A DNA stretch of 64,000 nt. Origin: Luteitalea pratensis. GTDB lineage: Bacteria > Acidobacteriota > Vicinamibacteria > Vicinamibacterales > Vicinamibacteraceae. Shown piece by piece: positions 5,916 through 32,926 of the stretch. The position numbers and the translations under genes are program-made. The stretch's first letter is position 1; every line of letters starts with the position of its first letter. The notes beneath the pieces are model-generated. The model did no database searches and was not told the origin of the DNA. It was given only the letters and a program-made list of their open reading frames with translations. The DNA lies in the NCBI RefSeq assembly GCF_001618865.1, contig NZ_CP015136.1, positions 2,763,001-2,827,000 of the forward strand. The letters are read 5' to 3'.

Positions 5916-6780
5916 CTGGGTCACCTGTCCGGGACCGACCGGTCCGATTCACGTCGCACTGCGTCTCACCCTGATCTGGCTGCTGCTCCGTCCGATGGGA
6001 CCGTGGTACGTGCGCGCGCCGCTGCTCCTGCTGTCGATGCTCGGACTTGTCTCCGGGCCATGGCTGCGGGCGCCGGCGGTCTGGTTGGCCATGGCCTTCC
6101 TCGTCGCTGTCCGGGTGTTCCTCGAGTGGCCGCTGCCCGACAATCACATCTACCTGCTCGCGTATTGGTGTCTTGGCATTGCACTGGCGCTGAGGTTCGA
6201 GAGTCCTGCGAGCCAGTTGGCACGTACCGGTCGCCTGCTGCTCGGCATCGTGTTCGCGTTCGCGGTGCTCTGGAAGGCGGTGTTGTCGCCCGACTATCGC
6301 GACGGCCGCTTTTTTGCCGTGACCATGTTGACCGACGATCGCTTTGCCGACGCCGTGCAGCTCCTGGGCGGGATCAGCGACGCGCAACTGCGGGAGAACC
6401 GTGACTACCTCACGCCGCTTCCGGGCGGCGCTGAGTTGCTGGAGCCCAAGGTGCTGCAGGCACCGGGTCGCTTTCGCGCGCTGGTGCTCGTCGCGACGTG
6501 GGGGACGCTCGCGATGGAGAGCCTGGCCGCCGCCCTCTGGCTGGCGCCGGTCACTCGGCCGGCGCTGCTCACCGCCAGGCACGGTATCGTTGTGCTGTTC
6601 TGCCTGACCACGTATGCGTTCGCGCCAGTCGCCGGGTTCGGCTGGCTGCTGATCGTCCTCGGCCTGAGCAACTGCGGCCCGCGCGACCGCTGGTCGAAGG
6701 CCGTGTACGTGGCGACTTACGCGACGGTGTTGTTGTATGCCGAGGTGCCGTGGGCCGCACTGGTGCTGGGAGGACTGTGA
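5902..6780 (+). CDS. Polytopic membrane protein, unknown function
   Basis: The 292-aa protein is almost entirely hydrophobic, with about seven or eight predicted membrane helices (for example LTLIWLLLRPMGPWYVRA, APLLLLSMLGLVSG, LLLGIVFAFAVLWKAVLS, YATVLLYAEVPWAALVL). A loop of about 70 residues between helices (residues ~130-200, with YRDGRFFAVTMLTDDRF) lies in the middle. The layout is reminiscent of HTTM / vitamin-K-carboxylase-like membrane proteins, but no diagnostic residues were identified. The GTG start lies within the end of the upstream gene. It is co-transcribed with its single-pass partner and perhaps with the DUF502 gene 19 nt further on. Confidence 0.65.
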   Translation: MRLRSWVTCPGPTGPIHVALRLTLIWLLLRPMGPWYVRAPLLLLSMLGLVSGPWLRAPAVWLAMAFLVAVRVFLEWPLPDNHIYLLAYWCLGIALALRFESPASQLARTGRLLLGIVFAFAVLWKAVLSPDYRDGRFFAVTMLTDDRFADAVQLLGGISDAQLRENRDYLTPLPGGAELLEPKVLQAPGRFRALVLVATWGTLAMESLAAALWLAPVTRPALLTARHGIVVLFCLTTYAFAPVAGFGWLLIVLGLSNCGPRDRWSKAVYVATYATVLLYAEVPWAALVLGGL

Positions 6781-6799
6781 TCATGGGAGGACCTGACGC

Positions 6800-7402
6800 A
6801 TGAAGGCAGCACGCGAGTTCGTCGTGAACACGCTGGTCGGTGGCATCTTCATCGTCGTGCCCGTCTACCTAGCGATCGTGCTGCTGCTGAAGGGCATGCA
6901 GTCAGCGGCGCGCCTGGTGAAGCCGTTCGCGGCGATGGTGCCTGACTGGTTGCCGGCCGAGACATTCTTCTCGCTCCTGCTGGTCCTGCTGGCCTGCTTC
7001 CTGGTAGGTGCGGCCGTGCGGACGAAGGCGGGGCGGGCGATTCGAGAAAAGATGGAGAAGGTGTTCTTCGAGCGGCTTCCCGGCTACGGCCTGCTGCGCA
7101 GTCTCACCCAGCGGCTGGCCGGGGACACCGAAGAGAGCGCGTGGCAGCCGGCCTTGTCAGAGATCGAGGATGCGCTGGTCCCCTCGTTCATCATCGAAGA
7201 ACTTGCCGACGGACGCTACACGGTGTTCGTGCCATCCATCCCGACACCGTTTGCCGGGGCCGTCTACGTCCTTGCGCGGGAACGCGTGCATCCCGTCGAC
7301 GTGCCGTTCACACAGGCGGTCAGAACCATCTCTCGATGGGGGTCGGGATCGGGCGAGATGGTAGCCGCCATGCGAAGCCCGACGTCAGGCCCCACCGCCT
7401 GA
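6800..7402 (+). CDS. DUF502 family inner-membrane protein
   Basis: This 200-aa protein fits DUF502 over its full length. It has two N-terminal membrane helices (TLVGGIFIVVPVYLAIVLLL and FFSLLLVLLACFLVGAAV), then the conserved PGYGLLRSLTQRLAGD-like segment and a soluble beta-rich tail with VPSIPTPFAGAVYVL. The ATG follows GGGAGGACCTGACGC. The family is widespread, and its biochemical role is unknown. It sits at the end of a run of five same-strand envelope genes. Confidence 0.85.
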   Translation: MKAAREFVVNTLVGGIFIVVPVYLAIVLLLKGMQSAARLVKPFAAMVPDWLPAETFFSLLLVLLACFLVGAAVRTKAGRAIREKMEKVFFERLPGYGLLRSLTQRLAGDTEESAWQPALSEIEDALVPSFIIEELADGRYTVFVPSIPTPFAGAVYVLARERVHPVDVPFTQAVRTISRWGSGSGEMVAAMRSPTSGPTA

Positions 7403-22491: not shown

Positions 22492-24051
22492 ATGGCGAGA
22501 CACGTGCTGGACATCTTTCTCTCCTCGACCTCCGAGGACCTGAAGGATTACCGTCGTACCGTCGCCGACACCCTCGGGCGCCTCGGACAGTTCGTCGTCA
22601 GGATGGAGACGTTCGGTGCCAAACCGAACAAGCCGCTGCCGGAGTGTCGGCAGGAAGTGGCCAGATCGGACGCGCTCATCGTCATCGTCGGCCATCGGTA
22701 CGGCTGGGTGCCGACCAAGAAGGACGGCGGCGACGGCAGGCGAAGCATCACCTGGTGGGAAGTGCAGTGGGCCCTCGACACGAACAAGCCGGTCTACGCC
22801 TTCCTGATCGACCCGACGACACCATGGACCGGCGCCAGGGAACAGGATCGCCTCGTGCGGGCGGGCTCGGAAGCCGAGACGCTCGGTGTCTGGCGCGACG
22901 TCCGCAGCCTCGCGGACTTCCGCAAGTTCCTCGAGAATTCGACGACGCGTGACGTGTTCACCACGCCCGATCAGCTCGGCCTGGTCGTGGCGACGAGCCT
23001 GTTTCCGTGGCTCCTCGAGCATGCCAGTCCGGTGCGGCCGGTGGCGCCCGGGGATCTGACGGCGGCAAGCGTCGTGCCTTCGGATCGACCACGTCCCGCG
23101 GCACGCGGTCGCGACGGGGTCGCGGGTCGAGTCAATCAGCGCCACCAACAGTTGTACTGGCTCGAACAGTTGCATGTGGGCAGCGCCCGTGAGCTCATTG
23201 CCGATCCGAAACCCGTTCGGGTGGCGATCATTGCCGGCCGCCCGCGCGAGAGTCACGCGGCGCTGACCAGCGTGTCCATCACCTCGGTGGCGACCGACGG
23301 TCGTGCGTCGGCCAACACGCCAGACGACTACACGACCGTGTTGAGCGCGTTGATCGCCGGGGCCGGCGACGACTTCGAAGGCGTCGCTCCGGGCGCGGAA
23401 CTGCTGACGATCAGTGTCCTGGACGAGAACTACACATCCACGAACGCGAGCATCGCCTCGGCGATCGACCGGGCCGTCCTTGGCGGTGCCCGGGTGTTGT
23501 GCCTGTCGCTGGGCTCCGCGAAGGAGTCGCAGGTCATCACGAACGCCATCACCGATGCGGTTGAGGCAGGGCTGATCGTGGTGGCCGCGGCCGGCAACCA
23601 GGGATCCGAGACACGGATCTATCCCGCGGCACTCGAGTCGGTGCTTGCCGTGGGTGCCGTGGGCATCGACGGCGAACCCACCCAGTGGACCAGCCATGGC
23701 GACTGGGTCGACATCATGGCGCCAGGAGACGTGCTGGTTCCCTCCGGCGCCGATGGCTATGCACAGATGCAGGGAACGTCGTGGGCCTGCGCGATCGTCA
23801 GCGGCGTCGTGGCGCTGCTGCTGCAAGTCGATCCGACGCTGAAGCCGGCTGCCATCCGGAAGCTGCTCACCGATACGGCCCACGCGACGCGCAGCGACAA
23901 GGCTGGCGCGCGGGTGGTCGACGCGTACCGGGCGGTGCGCGGCGCACTGCAGCCAGCCAGTCAGGCTGACCGGCCCGCTGTCAGGAAGCCCGCGGCCGGG
24001 TCCGGTGGCGTCCGCAAAGTGACCCGGCGCCGGGTCGCGGCATTGCGGTAG
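22492..24051 (+). CDS. DUF4062 domain fused to a subtilisin-like fold lacking catalytic Asp and His
   Basis: The 519-aa protein starts with DUF4062 (residues 3-~95: LDIFLSSTSEDLKDYRRTVA, ARSDALIVIVGHRYGWVP, SITWWEVQWAL), a TIR-like fold typical of signalling and conflict proteins. After a linker comes an S8 subtilase-like domain (~240-495). Its Asn (AAAGNQG, N369) and Ser (GTSWACAIVSG, S430) elements are kept. The Asp motif reads VAIIAGRP, with Ala at residue 248, and the HGTHVAG motif reads DYTTVLSALIAG, with Asp279 in the His place. A classical triad is therefore absent, so it is probably a binding module or uses different chemistry. No signal peptide is present, so it is cytosolic. GGAGGAGAGGC precedes the ATG. 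The combination is unusual. Confidence 0.8.
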   Translation: MARHVLDIFLSSTSEDLKDYRRTVADTLGRLGQFVVRMETFGAKPNKPLPECRQEVARSDALIVIVGHRYGWVPTKKDGGDGRRSITWWEVQWALDTNKPVYAFLIDPTTPWTGAREQDRLVRAGSEAETLGVWRDVRSLADFRKFLENSTTRDVFTTPDQLGLVVATSLFPWLLEHASPVRPVAPGDLTAASVVPSDRPRPAARGRDGVAGRVNQRHQQLYWLEQLHVGSARELIADPKPVRVAIIAGRPRESHAALTSVSITSVATDGRASANTPDDYTTVLSALIAGAGDDFEGVAPGAELLTISVLDENYTSTNASIASAIDRAVLGGARVLCLSLGSAKESQVITNAITDAVEAGLIVVAAAGNQGSETRIYPAALESVLAVGAVGIDGEPTQWTSHGDWVDIMAPGDVLVPSGADGYAQMQGTSWACAIVSGVVALLLQVDPTLKPAAIRKLLTDTAHATRSDKAGARVVDAYRAVRGALQPASQADRPAVRKPAAGSGGVRKVTRRRVAALR

Positions 24052-25898: not shown

Positions 25899-27815
25899 CT
25901 ACTTGCAGAACGCGACCTCGTCCAGGACGTCAGTCGGCACGGTTTCCCCCGTAGTCAGGAGGATGGTGGCCGACATCTTGACCAGATACGCGCACTTGTC
26001 GAGGTTCGCGACGTTGACACCGACGCTGGCGGTACCGAACTTGTCGGTGGCCGTTGCGGCCGCGTCGTCGGTGAGCGCCGCCGGATACGGTCCGCCGGGC
26101 CCATCCATGGTGATGGACACCGCGCCGAGGTTCGGATGCGCGGCCGTGTACTTGATGGTGAGCGCGTTGGTGATCTTCGCGCAGCCCGTGCCGATCTCCT
26201 CGACGTCGACCATCACGACGGCGAGTTGATTGTCCACCTCTTGCGGCGCCCACGAGCCCTTGTGGATCACGTCGTCATAGTGGGTGTTGTAGATGGCCAG
26301 GTTCGCGCAGATCCCGGCGGTTACTTCAGTGGCCGGCATGCCCACGCGTCGGACCTGCAGCCGTAGCCCGAAGAACTTGTCCTCGCCCTCCGCGGGCGGC
26401 GTGGTGCTCTGACCGGCGTGTGCCGTGATGGCGATGTTCGGCCAGCTCGCCATCTTCGTCGTGTCGAGGATGAGGAGATTGCCATTCGGCGCGAAGTTGC
26501 CTCCGGCGTCGTTGACGTTGCTTTCCTGCGGGACTTGTACCCACCCGTCGGCGGTGAGTGCGGCGACCATGTCGTTGGGCGCTGTTCCCTTCACGGCGTA
26601 CGGCTTGACATCGTCAGGCGGGGCGGGCACGGTGCTCTGCCACTGTCCGATGACGGTCCGCACGATCCAGTCGGTCGGCACTGCTGTCCAGGAACCGCCG
26701 GGAAGCTCCATGTATTCGAAGCGGTACTCGGCAGGCCCGCCGCCATGCTGCTTGCACAGGATGCCGTTCAGGCGAATGGACTCATAGAAGGCGCGACTGT
26801 CGGTCGTCAGGCCGGTCGCGGCGTTGATCCCCGTCAGGATGTTGTAGCCGCCGATGTAGCGGAACGTCGTCAGGCAGCCCGGCGGGCAGAAGATCCAGCA
26901 GTACAGCTCGCAGCGCGTATAGCAGATCCACTGGCAGACGTAGTAGCAGAAGCGCGACAGCTTGAGCTCCTCGATCACCGTGCCCCAGGCACCAGGATCC
27001 TCGCGGACGAACGCCTCGTTCAGCCTCTTGAGCGCCCCTTCGTCTCGTCCCAGCCGGGTCAGCGCCAGGGCGAACTCGCGGAGCTGCGGGATCTCGATAT
27101 CGACTCTCGGGAACTCGCGGCAGACGATGAAGCAGAGCCGGAAGCAGTTCCAGTAGCAGAAGAAGCGACAGAGGATGATGCAGAGGCGCAGCACGCGGAC
27201 GCCCTGCAGGACGGCGCGGAAGCCCTTCACGTCCTGCTTGCGAACGGCATCGAACGCCTTGGTGAGCGTCGCTTCGTCCCTGGCCACGGCGGCGAGGCCG
27301 TCCAGCCAGTCGCGAATCTCGCCGAGCGGATCTTCCTCGGGCTCCAGGCGTGTCCCGGTGCAGACGGTGACGCAGAACTTGCGGCATCGAAGCATGCAGA
27401 TCCAGAGGAAGACGAAGAAGCAGAAGCGCTGGATCTTCAGATCCCTGGCAATCGTGGCGAGCGACTGCGTGTCGCCGCGGTCCATGGCGTCGAGCAGGCG
27501 CTTGAGCAAGTCGGCGTTGTCGCGGAGGGGCTGCAGGAGCTTGGACAGCTCGACGATCTCTGCGGGAGTGGGGGGCGCCGTCGGAACCTCCTGGCAGATG
27601 AGGCGAACGACGCGCACGCAGCGCCAGATGCACAACCAGAAACAGATGCGTTGACAATGCGGGCGCAGTCGTCGTTGCTCCAGCGCGCCGCGAAATGCTT
27701 CGCGATCGTGCGCCTCGAACGCCTTGACGGCTCGAGTAAACGTTTGCTCGTCCTCGGCGAGCGCGCCGATCGCCCGCGCAGATTCCGCGAGCTCGATGAG
27801 ATGTTCGTTCTTCAT
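25899..27815 (-). CDS. Four-module cysteine-ladder protein, unrecognised family
   Basis: The 638-aa protein matches no family I recognise. Residues 1-318 hold four modules of 78-80 residues. Each is a ~45-residue charged helical part (as LARDEATLTKAFDA, GFRAVLQGVRVLR) followed by an aromatic-rich run with Cys at every fourth position: C54-58-62-66-74; C132-140-144-148-152; C212-216-220-224-228-232; C290-294-298-302-306-310-314. That makes 23 cysteines, where i,i+4 spacing would place them on one face of a helix. Residues ~320-638 are a beta-rich domain with a few more cysteines. There is no signal peptide. AAAGGAATGGCAC precedes the ATG. Metal binding or a membrane-seeking helix bundle is inference only. 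Confidence 0.75.
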   Translation of the reverse strand: MKNEHLIELAESARAIGALAEDEQTFTRAVKAFEAHDREAFRGALEQRRLRPHCQRICFWLCIWRCVRVVRLICQEVPTAPPTPAEIVELSKLLQPLRDNADLLKRLLDAMDRGDTQSLATIARDLKIQRFCFFVFLWICMLRCRKFCVTVCTGTRLEPEEDPLGEIRDWLDGLAAVARDEATLTKAFDAVRKQDVKGFRAVLQGVRVLRLCIILCRFFCYWNCFRLCFIVCREFPRVDIEIPQLREFALALTRLGRDEGALKRLNEAFVREDPGAWGTVIEELKLSRFCYYVCQWICYTRCELYCWIFCPPGCLTTFRYIGGYNILTGINAATGLTTDSRAFYESIRLNGILCKQHGGGPAEYRFEYMELPGGSWTAVPTDWIVRTVIGQWQSTVPAPPDDVKPYAVKGTAPNDMVAALTADGWVQVPQESNVNDAGGNFAPNGNLLILDTTKMASWPNIAITAHAGQSTTPPAEGEDKFFGLRLQVRRVGMPATEVTAGICANLAIYNTHYDDVIHKGSWAPQEVDNQLAVVMVDVEEIGTGCAKITNALTIKYTAAHPNLGAVSITMDGPGGPYPAALTDDAAATATDKFGTASVGVNVANLDKCAYLVKMSATILLTTGETVPTDVLDEVAFCK

Positions 27816-28313
27816 GTGCCATTCCTTTCGGTACCGTGAACACGCGCCTCATGCGTCATGTCGCGCCCGTCGGCCACCATCGCGCGTGACAGGCTCCTGC
27901 GCACGTTGCCAATGCCTTGGCGACGGGCGGACCCGCGGCTCCGCATGCGGGAGCACAACATCCGCCCGGGTGGCAACCATGTACCTGTACGCGTGCGCCT
28001 GCCTGTGATCAGCAGTACGGACAGCCGAGATGGAGGGCGTCAACGGCCGTGGCGACGATCATGAGAGCCTCGCGTCCCTCCTTGAAGAGAACGTCACGGC
28101 TGCGGTATCCGGACAGCACTATCGTGCAGGCTGAGGCCTACGGCCTGCAGGCTACAGGCCGCAGGCTGCAGGCTGCAGGCGTGTGGTGCGGAATCCCGTT
28201 CAGTCAGGTAATCTCGCTTCGCTCGTCCTCAGCAGGTGAGTCGGATTGAGCCCTGGGGCTCGCATCCGTCCAGTGCTGCGCGTCCGACCAGTCTCTTCGC
28301 CGCGGGGTGCTTT
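27816..28313. other. Intergenic region with repeat array
   Basis: This stretch of about 500 bases separates the divergent cysteine-ladder and sigma-factor genes. It contains the heptamer array at 28125-28180 and no supported gene. Promoters in both directions are expected here; no clear -35/-10 pair was recognised. Confidence 0.4.
28125..28180. repeat. Heptamer repeat array, right side
   Basis: Seven or eight degenerate copies of GCTGCAG/GCTACAG/GCCTACG words, of the same type as 25748-25850. Both arrays lie outside the cysteine-ladder gene, one on each side. Confidence 0.7.
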
Positions 28314-28847
28314 GTGTCCCACGGAAACGCCCACCTCGACTACGACACGCTGCGCCGGGACGTGGTCCGTGCCGTCGCGCGTCTGTGTCCGGGGTGGTTG
28401 TCGCAGCGCCGCGAGGACCTCGTGCAAATCGCTGTGATGCGTGTCATGCGCATCACCGAGAAGCGGTCCTCGTCCGATGAGGTGAACGAGCCCCTGTCGA
28501 CGTCTTACCTGTATAGGGTCGCGTACAGCGTCCTGGTCGACGAGATCCGGCGGCTGCGACGTCACCCCGAGACGGATCTCGAGGACGATGCGGTCGCGCC
28601 ACTGGCGGTGTCGAAGGAGAATCCCGAGCGCACGGCGGCATCGAAGGAGATCGGCCGCGGCATCCAGGACTGCCTGTCGCAGATGAAGCGCGAACGGCGA
28701 CTCGCCGCCACGCTCCACCTCCAGGGACACACGGTGCCGGAGGCGGCCAGGATCCTCGACTGGGCTGTCAAGCAGACGGAGAACCTCGTCTACCGCGGCC
28801 TGGCAGACCTTCGAAAATGCCTTCTCGCCAAGGGGATACGACCGTGA
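28314..28847 (+). CDS. ECF-type RNA polymerase sigma factor
   Basis: The 177-aa product has the two DNA/core-binding regions of a minimal sigma factor. Region 2 is REDLVQIAVMRVMRIT with TSYLYRVAYSVLVDEIRRLR. Region 4 is RRLAATLHLQGHTVPEAARILDWAVKQTENLVYRGLADLRKCL, read as separate helices. It directs RNA polymerase to a dedicated promoter set. The GTG at 28314 is preferred; the frame is open to 28236. The last codon overlaps the GTG of the next gene (GTGA), so the sigma factor and its presumed partner are translationally coupled. This suggests autoregulation of the operon that ends in the CHAT protein. Confidence 0.85.
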   Translation: MSHGNAHLDYDTLRRDVVRAVARLCPGWLSQRREDLVQIAVMRVMRITEKRSSSDEVNEPLSTSYLYRVAYSVLVDEIRRLRRHPETDLEDDAVAPLAVSKENPERTAASKEIGRGIQDCLSQMKRERRLAATLHLQGHTVPEAARILDWAVKQTENLVYRGLADLRKCLLAKGIRP

Positions 28848-29515
28848 CCGAGACGCGCAGGTCGGACGAGCGCCTGGCCGACGTCTTCAGGGCGATCGAG
28901 GACTCGTCAGCTGTCGCGGTGAGCGACAGTGATCGCGAGCGCATCTGGCTGGCCATCTCGGGCGAGCTGCCGCCCGAGGAGCGGCGCGCCCTGGTCGACC
29001 AGATGGCCACGACTCCGGCGTACGCCGAGGCCTGGCGCGTGGCGCACGAGATGTGGCGAGCATCACAGGGCACCGCGGCAGAGGCGGCCGACACACCGGT
29101 CCGGCACTACCCGAGACGCTGGACGGCACCGTGGGTGGCCGCGGCGGCCGTGCTCCTGGTTGGCACCACCATCGGGCTCGTGTCGTTGCGCGAACAGCAA
29201 TCGGTCGACAAGTTCCGATCCTCACCCGGATATGTCATCGAGTCGCGCGTGCCAGACGCCGGCGCGCTGCCGCGTGAAGCATTCCGGCTGCAATGGGCGG
29301 CCGGCCCGGAGGGGTCGCGTTACCGCGTCCGTGTCACGACGGAAGACCTTGTCGTACTCGCCACAGCCGCCGACCTCGCTGCTGCGGAGTTCTCGGTAGC
29401 GGCAACCCAGCTGTCGGAACTGCCCCCGGGCACCACGGTGCTCTGGCAAGTGGACGCATATCTTCCGGACGGCGAACGGGTCACGTCGCGAACGTTCGTC
29501 ACACACGTCAGGTGA
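28844..29515 (+). CDS. Membrane-anchored anti-sigma-factor-like protein
   Basis: The 223-aa protein starts at a GTG inside the sigma-factor stop (GTGA overlap). Residues 1-~85 are a helical cytosolic part (ERIWLAISGELPPEERRALV, AEAWRVAHEMWRA) lacking the zinc HxxxCxxC motif. A membrane helix (WVAAAAVLLVGTTIGLVSL) follows, then a periplasmic domain (SYRVRVTTEDL-type strands, LPPGTTVLWQVDAYLPDG) resembling a fibronectin-like fold. Position and layout indicate an anti-sigma factor that senses something outside the membrane; direct evidence of sigma binding is not visible. An ATG at 28817 is in frame but less likely. Confidence 0.7.
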   Translation: MTETRRSDERLADVFRAIEDSSAVAVSDSDRERIWLAISGELPPEERRALVDQMATTPAYAEAWRVAHEMWRASQGTAAEAADTPVRHYPRRWTAPWVAAAAVLLVGTTIGLVSLREQQSVDKFRSSPGYVIESRVPDAGALPREAFRLQWAAGPEGSRYRVRVTTEDLVVLATAADLAAAEFSVAATQLSELPPGTTVLWQVDAYLPDGERVTSRTFVTHVR

Positions 29516-29596
29516 GGGAGTCCGGTCGGAGCCGACGTTATCCGTTCAGAGGCGACGCAAGCGACGTTGTCGTATCCACAAGGAGGGAGCTTGACC

Positions 29597-30061
29597 ATGG
29601 GGACGAACGCTGCAATCACGCGTGGTGCACTGGCTTTGCTGCTGACGTCGATGCTCGGCGTCGTGGCTGGTGCCCAGGGGCCGCCCCGGGGCACCCAGCG
29701 CACCGGCTACTGCCCCGGGGGGCCGTTGACACTCACCAGAGGACAGGTGGCATTTCATATGTCGCTGGACGACATCCAGGGCGCCCCTGCCGGACTCGTG
29801 CTGATGAGGATCATCGATCGGGAGGGGAACGAGGTCGCCGCACGGAGTGTCTGGCTGCAGCCAGGACAGTCCGCTTCGCTCGTGTACACCGGCACAGACC
29901 TGTTCCGGCCGCAGGCCGAAACGTTCGAATCCCTCTCGACGCTGACGACGCTCAGCGACCGCCGCACGTTCATTGGCACCTTCGAGGGGTTCGATGACCT
30001 CAGGGCTGAGCTGCCCGTCCTCTGTGCCGAACCTGCCGGGCAGGGCCGCATCCCGGGATGA
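29597..30061 (+). CDS. Small secreted protein of the sigma/CHAT operon
   Basis: A 154-aa protein with a signal peptide (ALALLLTSMLGVVAGAQG). The mature part is beta-rich (GQVAFHMSLDDIQGAPAGLV, VAARSVWLQPGQSASLVYTG), with two cysteines near the ends (GYCPGG, PVLCAEP). AAGGAGGGAGCTTGACC precedes the ATG. It lies between the anti-sigma-like and CHAT genes, with 81 nt before and 12 nt after. Function is unknown; it may be a ligand or accessory of the exported CHAT protein. Confidence 0.65.
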   Translation: MGTNAAITRGALALLLTSMLGVVAGAQGPPRGTQRTGYCPGGPLTLTRGQVAFHMSLDDIQGAPAGLVLMRIIDREGNEVAARSVWLQPGQSASLVYTGTDLFRPQAETFESLSTLTTLSDRRTFIGTFEGFDDLRAELPVLCAEPAGQGRIPG

Positions 30062-30073
30062 CGGGCGTTCGCG

Positions 30074-32926
30074 ATGCGGTGGTACGGACACGCGACTGTC
30101 GCGCGAGTCGCCGTCACGGCGGCGACCGTCGTGTGCTCGGCCGTCGGCGCCGCGCAGGCACCCGCTGACCCCTATGCGGTGTGCCAGGAGCAGTTTCGCC
30201 GCGCGCCCCGGGACTACGAGTCCGCCTACTGCTTCTATCGTGTCACCTTCGAACGGCGCCTCTGGGCTGAGGGTGCCCGCATCTTCGACGACCTGATCGC
30301 CGAGCACCCGGACAACTCGTGGCTCGTGCTTGCCTACGGGCATATCCACCGCAGCCGCGATCCCGATCGCGCTGAGGTCCTGTATCGCCGTGCCGCACGC
30401 GCCTTTCAGGCCGCCGGCGATGTGGCCGGCGAGGCGGAAGCCCGCACGAATCTGGCGAACTTCCTGCGGCCAAAGGGGCGTGTCGAAGACGCACGACGCG
30501 AAGTCGATCGCGTGGTCGCCCTGGCCGCGAGTGTGGGCGACCCGCTGGTCAGGGCACAGGCCTGGATACTCGAGTCCGCGTACGTGCAGGAGACGGGCGG
30601 CGATCTTGGTGTGTCGTATCGCTTGCTCAAGCAGGCGCAGGACATCCTGCCCGAGCACCCGCCGTACCTGCGTGAGCGGGCGCTGCTCATCGCGCTGGGC
30701 GCCGCGTCGTTCAGGATGGGACGGCTGGACGAGGCGCTGACCACCTACCGGCGACTCGAGACGCTCGCCATGGCGAAGGGCGAGCCACTGGTCCTTGCAA
30801 ACGCGCGCTACAACATCTTCAACACGGCGGAGGCGATGGAGGCGGTGCTGCCTACGCCAGGCGCCAGGGATCGCCTGACGGCGATGGCTGAACGGTCGCT
30901 GGCAACCGCGGTCGCTGGGCAGAACCTCGACGTGACGGTGAAGAGCCATCGCGCGCTCGCGGACCTGATGGCGTTCGACGACCGGGCGCACGGGGAGGCG
31001 CTGCGGCACGCCCAGCAGTGCATCACGCTGGCGGCGGAGGCCCGGCAGCCCGCCGACGAGGCGGCCTGTTCGTGGATCGTGGCGACACTCGAGGCGCCCG
31101 CCGACGCCCGCGCGGCACGTGCGGCTGGACAGAGAGCCGTCGAGGCCACCTCGCGCGACAACAATCCGCGTACACAGGCGCATAGCGCAGGCCGGCAGAT
31201 GCGTGTGAGCTGGCTTACCAGATCGCACGACGAGGCCATCAGGGATTCGCTCGCCGCCATCGGTACCGTGGAAACGCTTCGGGCTCTCCAGGACGATGCC
31301 AGGACCAGCGCCGACCTCTTCTCATCCTGGACGCGGGACTACTACTGGCTGTCGGGACGTCTCCTGCGAGAAGACCATCCCGACGTGGCGCTGGCATTCT
31401 CGGTGACCGAGCGCATGCGCGCGCGTTCATTGCTCGACGTCCTCGACACATCTCGCCAGCCCCTCGATCCGGGGCACCCTGCGGTCGCTGCCCGACGGGC
31501 CGTGCTGGAGAGCATCGCCGCGGTCCAGCGTGTGTTGATGGATGGGAGTGTGGGCGGGGAGCGACGCGCGCGACACCTGCAGGAACTCGACGTCCTGGAG
31601 CGCAGGGAACAGGAGGCACGGCGACAGGTGGCCATGGCGTTTCCCGATCGGCGTGACGTGCCGCGCACTTTTGCGAGCCTCGATGCCGTGCAAGCCGCGC
31701 TCGGCCCTGACGAGGCGCTTCTGTCGTTCCAGGTCGGCCTGTGGGAGAGCTACGCCGGCGAGGACGAAGGTGGCTCGTGGCTGCTGGTTGCGACACGAGA
31801 CAGCCGGACGATCTACCGCCTTCCAGACCGCGCGCGCCTGGCGCCTGCCGTCCCCATGTTCAACGGACTGCTCGAGAGTAGCCAGAGAGGTGCGGCCGCT
31901 GCGGCGATCAGCCTGTACGACGCGCTGCTGTCCGACGCCGTCTCGTCGCTGCCACCAGGCATCAATCGGCTCGTCATCGTGCCCGATGGCGTCCTGCATC
32001 ATCTTCCGTTCGAGGCGTTGCAGTCGTCGCGGGAGGCGCCGCCGCTCGCTGCGCGCTACGAAATCGTCCTCGCGCCGTCAGCCACGCTCTGGCTGCAGGG
32101 ACGGGCGAGGCCTCGTCGAACACCAACGGGCCGGATGCTCGTCCTCGCCGATCCGGCCCTGGCCGGCAGCGCCGAACGCGCGGATCGCGGATCGCGGATC
32201 GGGGATCGCGGCTCGCCGATCGCGGACCCGTCGCCGTTGCGAGGCGTGCGACTCGGCCGACTCCCTCACGCCCGCGACGAGAGCAGCGCCATCGCGCACC
32301 ACGTAGCCGGTGTGGACGTGCTCATCGGCGAGAAGGCATCCGAGAGGAATGTGAAAGCCAGGGACCTGCGTACGTATGACGTCCTGCACTTCGCCGCGCA
32401 CGCGGTAGCCGACGAGGCCCACCCGGAGCGCTCTGCGGTGCTGCTGGCCGCTGGCGGGCCCGCCGAAGACGGGCTGCTGCAGGCCAGGGAAATCGCGGCG
32501 CTCGACATCGAGGAAAGCATCGTGGTGCTCTCGGCGTGCCAGACAGCCGCAGGTGCCGTCCTCAGCGGCGAGGGCGTGTTGAGCCTCGCTCGGGCGTTCT
32601 TCGAAGGGGGCGCACACGCGGTGATCGGGACCCGGTGGCCGCTGCGCGATGCCGACGCGGCCGTGCTGTTCGACACGTTCTATCGGCACCTCGCGGAGGG
32701 CGTGTCGCTGTCGGCGGCCCTGAAGGCGACCCGCGATGAGGCGCGTGCGGCAGGGCGGCCGCCTTCGGCGTGGGCGTCGCTGGTCCTGCTCGGCAACGGC
32801 GACCTCCGGCCCTTCGCCGGCAGACGGCCACCTGTGGTGGAGAAGGGCCGTCACCTCGCTCCGCTCGTCGTCGCGCTCTCGATCCTCATCGCCCTCGGTA
32901 TCGTGCTCGCGCGCCGGCGCGCCTAG
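30074..32926 (+). CDS. Exported TPR-CHAT protein (caspase-like peptidase family)
   Basis: The 950-aa protein has an N-terminal signal-like segment (VAVTAATVVCSAVGAAQA), then TPR-like helical repeats to about residue 480. The CHAT domain (~540-905) follows, with the catalytic pair His776 in VLHFAAHA and Cys822 in VVLSACQTA, and GEGVLSLARAFFEGGAHAVI and TRWPL after it. It ends in a membrane helix (LAPLVVALSILIALGIVL) and RRRA. CHAT peptidases act in bacterial signalling and death responses. Here the enzyme seems to be carried outside the inner membrane and tied to it. It is the last gene of the ECF operon. Residues near 703-718 (RADRGSRIGDRGSP) come from an in-frame GGATCGCG repeat. Confidence 0.85.
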   Translation: MRWYGHATVARVAVTAATVVCSAVGAAQAPADPYAVCQEQFRRAPRDYESAYCFYRVTFERRLWAEGARIFDDLIAEHPDNSWLVLAYGHIHRSRDPDRAEVLYRRAARAFQAAGDVAGEAEARTNLANFLRPKGRVEDARREVDRVVALAASVGDPLVRAQAWILESAYVQETGGDLGVSYRLLKQAQDILPEHPPYLRERALLIALGAASFRMGRLDEALTTYRRLETLAMAKGEPLVLANARYNIFNTAEAMEAVLPTPGARDRLTAMAERSLATAVAGQNLDVTVKSHRALADLMAFDDRAHGEALRHAQQCITLAAEARQPADEAACSWIVATLEAPADARAARAAGQRAVEATSRDNNPRTQAHSAGRQMRVSWLTRSHDEAIRDSLAAIGTVETLRALQDDARTSADLFSSWTRDYYWLSGRLLREDHPDVALAFSVTERMRARSLLDVLDTSRQPLDPGHPAVAARRAVLESIAAVQRVLMDGSVGGERRARHLQELDVLERREQEARRQVAMAFPDRRDVPRTFASLDAVQAALGPDEALLSFQVGLWESYAGEDEGGSWLLVATRDSRTIYRLPDRARLAPAVPMFNGLLESSQRGAAAAAISLYDALLSDAVSSLPPGINRLVIVPDGVLHHLPFEALQSSREAPPLAARYEIVLAPSATLWLQGRARPRRTPTGRMLVLADPALAGSAERADRGSRIGDRGSPIADPSPLRGVRLGRLPHARDESSAIAHHVAGVDVLIGEKASERNVKARDLRTYDVLHFAAHAVADEAHPERSAVLLAAGGPAEDGLLQAREIAALDIEESIVVLSACQTAAGAVLSGEGVLSLARAFFEGGAHAVIGTRWPLRDADAAVLFDTFYRHLAEGVSLSAALKATRDEARAAGRPPSAWASLVLLGNGDLRPFAGRRPPVVEKGRHLAPLVVALSILIALGIVLARRRA
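32180..32225 (+). repeat. In-frame octamer-type repeat inside the CHAT gene
   Basis: Several copies of GGATCGCG/GGATCGGG words in a row, encoding RADRGSRIGDRGSPIAD. It is an insertion between two strands of the CHAT domain that keeps the frame. Confidence 0.6.

Follow-up and report, generated by a model that had tools for sequence, protein, structure and literature searches.

Metallothioneins are short proteins of very high cysteine content that use CxC and CxxC motifs. Their chains are unstructured in the apo form and fold on metal (PMC7558416), and basic residues stand beside their cysteines. Long tetrad repeats of a single residue type along a helix are found in FliH/YscL, whose helices carry long xxxG tetrads or GxxxG repeats (PMC2674601). 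Closest in chemistry to the protein described here are Csp3 and Csp1 (PF03860, DUF326; PDB 5fig and 5arm), which hold many reduced cysteines on alpha-helices in a 4-3-4-3 spacing, on all four helices of a four-helix bundle and turned to one core face. In MtCsp3, eight Cu(I) sites are each formed by the two thiolates of a CXXXC pair on a single helix; the loading of Csp3 comes to roughly one Cu(I) for every cysteine (PMC5171941).

We analyzed a 64,000-nucleotide stretch of DNA from a soil bacterium (the window) that holds a gene whose product repeats, in each of four modules, a ladder of cysteines set four residues apart (Table 1). In our judgment, the simplest reading may be that this protein is a new scaffold that binds thiol-loving metals, copper among them. 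The GC3 profile across the gene is typical of coding sequence, and its modules and their register are kept by homologues in 10 other genomes. A 473-codon open frame that lies antisense to it (26418-27839, plus strand) mirrors the high G+C of the ladder gene and was taken as an artefact. The sequence-only reading of this DNA had described four modules with exact i,i+4 cysteines, numbering 5, 5, 6 and 7 from module 1 to module 4, with Val70 and Phe136 in the empty slots; we confirmed these positions and place them on the minus strand.

Table 1. Features of the cysteine-ladder locus (positions in the window)
Feature	Positions	Strand	Description and basis
Cysteine-ladder protein gene	25899..27815	-	Single open frame, ATG start, 638 residues
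Ribosome-binding-site-like AAAGGA	27823..27828	-	7 bases 5' of ATG, read in the upstream sequence
Module 1, residues 5-78	27582..27803	-	Repeat alignment; helices H4-20, H23-34, H38-47, H51-73
Ladder 1, Cys 54/58/62/66/(Val70)/74	27594..27656	-	Cys positions in the sequence
Module 2, residues 83-157	27345..27569	-	Repeat alignment, AlphaFold2 helices
Ladder 2, Cys 132/(Phe136)/140/144/148/152	27360..27422	-	Cys positions in the sequence
Module 3, residues 162-237	27105..27332	-	Repeat alignment; AlphaFold2 together with module 4
Ladder 3, Cys 212/216/220/224/228/232, 6/6 slots filled	27120..27182	-	Cys positions, DNA pattern
Module 4, residues 240-316	26868..27098	-	Repeat alignment; AlphaFold2 with module 3
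Ladder 4, seven Cys, 290-314 in steps of 4	26874..26948	-	Cys positions, DNA pattern
C-terminal beta-rich domain, residues 317-638, end part Ig-like	25902..26867	-	Cross-phylum sharing, AlphaFold2, VIA-align
Divergent neighbours: sigma-70-like (28236-28847), two unnamed proteins, TPR-CHAT (30074-32926)	28236..32926	+	Pfam

The register of the ladders is strict. Within the four 21-residue ladders no cysteine stands off register, a result reached by none of 200,000 within-segment shuffles, and the DNA pattern for five tetrad-spaced cysteines occurs five times in the window, always inside the ladder gene, against a shuffle expectation of 0.01. The pattern is not chance. The ladders of the window protein form 17 CxxxC pairs and contain no CxC or CxxC; the five cysteines that do not belong to a ladder all lie in the C-terminal domain.

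We then compared 34 modules from 11 distinct proteins, six with four modules and five with two. The slots of the ladder are cysteine in 190 of 204 cases and the positions between slots in 3 of 510 (module 2 of the homologue L021 was counted one slot out of register, with 4/6 slots filled either way), which bears out the earlier claim that the ladder is under selection and shows that the i,i+4 register is kept in all 11 proteins. Ladders are complete in the two-module proteins and in modules 3 and 4; in the four-module proteins, one or two slots are missing from each of modules 1 and 2. These losses are lineage-specific: the window protein and L021 have Val/Phe or Ala there, and the Terriglobia proteins have Arg in the slot of module 1 and Tyr/Phe in that of module 2. 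The consensus of the ladder reads C-x-x-[ILV]-C-[RHE]-W-[FLIV]-C-x-x-[RH]-C-R-[RL]-[VFL]-C-x-x-[VLF]-C, rich in Trp, Phe, Ile, Leu and Val and basic overall (12% Arg, 2% Lys and 4% His vs 4% Asp+Glu).

The family is rare and patchy. Counting the window's own genome, the module profile matched proteins in 3 of the 193 genomes examined from the class and in 2 of 396 from a phylum sample, and in a second acidobacterial class it did so in 7 of 399; a scan of the collection added one further Terriglobia protein (L025). The genus is represented by four more genomes, all of which lack the ladder protein, and searches of plasmids, phages and viral contigs found no relatives. When genomes were scanned for six spaced TGY codons as a plain DNA pattern, low-complexity repeats dominated the matches. 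Viral contigs with seven-cysteine tetrads were set aside, being rich in Gly/Ser/Thr, mostly repeats or chance, and giving no convincing match to the module profile. Three viral contigs (L140, L078 and L135) encode phage proteins with a cysteine at every fourth residue that are rich in Gly/Ser/Thr/Asp, for example CSSGCTQNCNITCSATCEHSC; these form a different, probably non-helical class. In agreement with the initial impression that no family could be recognized, the protein has no match in Pfam, NCBIfam, PHROGs or PADLOC, its best NCBIfam match (halocin C8, E 5.3) being noise. As far as we searched family libraries and literature, this is a real, conserved family that has not been described.

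AlphaFold2 models of the full protein, built with 10 sequences, predict four helices per module with the ladder on the last one (H51-73, H129-153, H209-232 and H287-309), which is 23-25 residues long, at pLDDT values mostly of 80-95; a separate model of modules 3 and 4 has a pLDDT of 91 and a pTM of 0.80. The C-terminal half is predicted as beta, with low pLDDT in places, so that the models support the order proposed from the sequence, helical modules and then some 320 beta-rich residues. Foldseek against the PDB and BFVD returned no PDB or viral structure with E below 0.8 for the modules, and VIA-align found no convincing fold for them (Z at most 3.5); Csp is not among the rows of either search, an absence that is no evidence against a Csp fold. 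De novo designed bundles of the ABLE, PS1 and MPP1 type, which a PDB profile search matched at E 5e-6, were rejected as kin because the match reflects a shared composition of helix-'GD'-helix hairpins and covers only the half of the module without cysteines.

The claim that the thiols lie along one face does not hold on an ideal alpha-helix. Each residue there adds 100 degrees, which puts every cysteine 40 degrees from the next one in the ladder, so that six cysteines sweep from 0 to 200 degrees; their mean vector is 0.42 in a window ladder vs 0.90 in helix 1 of BsCsp3 (a sequence that we verified to be that of PDB 5fig), whose gaps run 4-3-4-3-4 and not 4-4-4-4-4. Only a helix with about 4.0 residues in each turn would bring the ladder onto one face. 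The hydrophobic residue preceding each cysteine (columns 3, 7, 15 and 19) drifts round the helix with it, which means that the apolar face itself turns. Since the cysteines wind round the helix, part of each ladder may be exposed to solvent or face the adjoining module.

How the protein relates to Csp depends on whether chemistry or kinship is considered. Both have many cysteines on alpha-helices, the ladders lying in predicted helices, and both have CXXXC pairs within single helices, so the comparison with Csp that the sequence-only reading had drawn is reasonable as chemistry, such pairs binding Cu(I) in MtCsp3 (PMC5171941). It does not hold as kinship: the protein has no Pfam match, none of 20 modules matches DUF326, and hhalign of the module profile against BsCsp3 gives a probability of 0.2%. 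Whereas Csp draws cysteines from all four helices, those of the ladder modules are confined to the fourth, by sequence and by the AlphaFold2 models, in a 4-4-4 spacing; unlike Csp, the protein also consists of repeated modules followed by an Ig-like domain. Ladder helices of different modules may nevertheless bundle together. By sequence, then, the protein is not a Csp, but by chemistry it may be like one. DUF326, the family of Csp-type stores, has no match in any of the 10 host genomes; these bacteria could use a different store, though the absence is no proof of one. The likeness to metallothioneins is limited to cysteine content and to basic residues beside the cysteines: the ladder protein is 638 residues long, and its helical modules are predicted without metal. 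FliH/YscL share the long tetrad repeat of one residue type, but with Gly in place of Cys and without modules, and we claim no homology.

Based on these features, we propose as a plausible account, which we hold as tentative and not yet as probable, that the protein is a leaderless, probably cytosolic thiolate ladder binding soft metal or metalloid ions, with Cu(I) as the first candidate. Members of the family would be leaderless, probably cytosolic proteins built from four-helix modules, two or four per chain, with a thiol at every fourth residue of each module's last helix. On reading, the sequence shows neither a signal peptide nor a membrane span, as in cytosolic Csp3, and as in Csp we would expect reduced thiols and no disulfides. 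The thiols of a CxxxC pair, with C-beta atoms about 6.4 Å apart on an ideal helix, could act as two-coordinate clamps, most likely for Cu(I), with Ag(I), Zn(II)/Cd(II), Hg(II) and As(III) as other possible ions. Each thiol being common to two clamps, ions may form a succession that runs along the helix and winds about it. That single pairs add up to a store is likewise part of the proposal. The many Arg and His residues beside the cysteines would offset the thiolate charge, and the Ig-like C-terminal domain might dock or oligomerize the store. In favor of metal binding we count the kept register, the ladder on a single helix, the 17 CxxxC pairs, the missing leader, the basic ladders, the absence of DUF326 and some metal-gene neighbours; against it count metal neighbours that vary, the lack of a shared operator, the spiralling of the cysteines, the slot losses in modules 1 and 2, and a C-terminal domain that exists without ladders. 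A more specific version, which would make the protein a categorically new metalloprotein design and in which the spiral tetrad ladders carry an unbroken thiolate-bridged chain of soft metal, two or four per protein, and replace the missing Csp stores, we regard as doubtful. If the ladders hold metal, alpha-helices can form a high-capacity thiolate store by a second, unrelated design, and its 4.0-residue period, which textbook helix packing does not produce, would be useful for metalloprotein design. If they hold none, the rule that a helix keeps a cysteine at every fourth position across a phylum still calls for an explanation and can be tested directly.

The C-terminal domain is shared beyond the ladder family. 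VIA-align places residues 530-638 close to an Ig repeat of SiiE (Z 8.4 over 94 residues, 3.4 Å) and to RbmA (Z 8.2), an Ig-like arrangement that is a common one. Among the 396 Acidobacteriota genomes sampled, the domain occurs only where the ladder protein does, and it is found without ladders in two Gammaproteobacteria, Ca. Jettenia, one Chlorobiota and one Chitinophagales genome. Five proteins (L022, L023, L024, L026 and L027) have the same domain of about 320 residues at 38-45% identity; unlike the ladder protein, these TTR/CarboxypepD_reg proteins begin with two transthyretin-like domains (PF01060/PF13620) and have no cysteine ladder. They too are leaderless, with no evident signal peptide. 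Conversely, the two-module ladder proteins have a different end domain. As ladders occur with differing end domains and the end domain occurs without ladders, the two are separate building blocks, and the ladder family gives a first handle on an unannotated domain found in several phyla. A motif FCK near the C terminus is invariant in the five transthyretin-like proteins.

The strongest rival to metal binding holds that the cysteines are packing or cross-linking residues, which either let helices cross closely or harden a structural protein by disulfides between modules or chains; we consider it unlikely. A small side chain at every fourth residue recalls the tetrad repeats of FliH/YscL (PMC2674601), the GxxxG runs of FliH being a presumed means of close crossing. 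The joint drift of the cysteines and of the hydrophobic residues before them, the Ala at three slots of L021 and an Ig-like end domain suited to a structural protein agree with this view. However, cysteine is kept far more strictly than packing needs: Gly or Ser never fills a slot and Ala does so three times, yet Arg, Tyr, Phe and Val occur. Cross-linking also meets an established geometric obstacle, as i,i+4 cysteines on one helix are not easily joined by a disulfide, and the protein has no export signal.

Ranking next, and less likely again, is a role as the output or protease target of a stress or conflict module formed by the sigma-like and TPR-CHAT genes, in which the ladder protein would sense oxidants or metals and be cut by CHAT; such a role is compatible with metal binding. 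The neighbourhoods of ladder loci vary and have no constant gene, but a distant homologue (L052) has the same divergent layout as the window, a sigma-like gene (recognized by eye, with no Pfam match) followed by TPR-CHAT, in genomes with just 9 and 4 CHAT genes, respectively, and in L028 a sigma-like gene lies 86 bases upstream of the ladder gene. TPR-CHAT proteases are reportedly known together with sigma factors in type III-E CRISPR. Yet a CHAT gene lies near the ladder gene in only 2 of 10 genomes and is absent from three genomes altogether, and the co-location was spotted after the fact. Neither P0001 nor L029 has a PADLOC match, which gives no place for the ladder protein in the anti-phage defence models. 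The divergent neighbours of the window gene are no more than possible partners. The TPR-CHAT protein of the window has 950 residues and a weak PADLOC similarity to BovA (E 2e-07).

A role as an Fe-S, heme or other redox cofactor protein, with the ladders as a relay for electrons or redox changes, is improbable. Many conserved cysteines beside Trp, Phe and Tyr would fit such a relay, but CxxCH, CxxCxxC and the other known cluster motifs are missing from the sequence, Fe-S clusters rarely use a pure i+4 run of cysteines on one helix, and no Fe-S or heme assembly genes were seen among the neighbours.

Two further alternatives raised from the sequence were weakened to the point of being very improbable. 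A multi-core ribosomal peptide precursor, with the helical part as leader and the ladder as a core that is modified and excised, is suggested by a RiPP radical-SAM C-methyltransferase gene (TIGR03975, 664 bits; L052:2892-4844, genome G772) 1 kb from the ladder gene, but TIGR03975, which has three copies over the cut-off in the acidobacterial genome G772, passes it in only 2 of 10 host genomes, lies on another contig in G139 and adjoins the ladder locus in L052 only; moreover, AlphaFold2 predicts stable helices followed by a 320-residue domain, and the module alignment, read by eye, shows neither Gly-Gly nor another motif for leader cleavage where the helical part passes into the ladder. Insertion of the aromatic, cysteine-rich helices in or across a membrane, for which their Trp, Phe, Ile, Leu and Val would speak, is hardly to be expected of helices of just 21-23 residues with about 18% Arg+Lys+His spread over 21 residues, no signal peptide and ordinary soluble helices upstream.

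Returning to the binding of soft metals, several ladder genes lie near genes related to metals. In L053 a CusA/CzcA-type heavy-metal pump (1093 bits) is encoded directly upstream, with adaptor and outer-membrane genes; L055 has a CobW-type GTPase and a tyrosinase, a copper enzyme, near the ladder gene, L054 an EfeU/Ftr1-type iron transporter, and the L020 ladder gene lies behind two Get3/ArsA-type ATPases. These neighbours differ at each locus and are absent from the window and from several other loci, and the upstream sequences of the ladder genes revealed no shared operator. We treat metal-gene and sigma/CHAT neighbours alike as leads. A small gene of the membrane-type DUF1360 family lies directly downstream in L052 (5499-5831, minus strand; match just under the cut-off) and in L053 (8550-9032, plus strand).

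Some further genes were noted at these loci. The contig L055 that carries the CobW-type GTPase and tyrosinase genes also encodes (19-1599) a dense His/Cys stretch (HDHDCHEHDCHCHCHHCHERECRCYCHRRHHHREC) with no NCBIfam match. In the window, a gene at 22492-24051 (plus strand) that adjoins an M28 peptidase gene fuses DUF4062 to a subtilase (PF13271 and PF00082), an unusual fusion of the conflict-system type. Finally, L015 encodes a contractile tail-sheath protein (6016-7086; PF04984/PF17482) 4 kb from the ladder gene; it could belong to an injection-system island that the end of the contig truncates.
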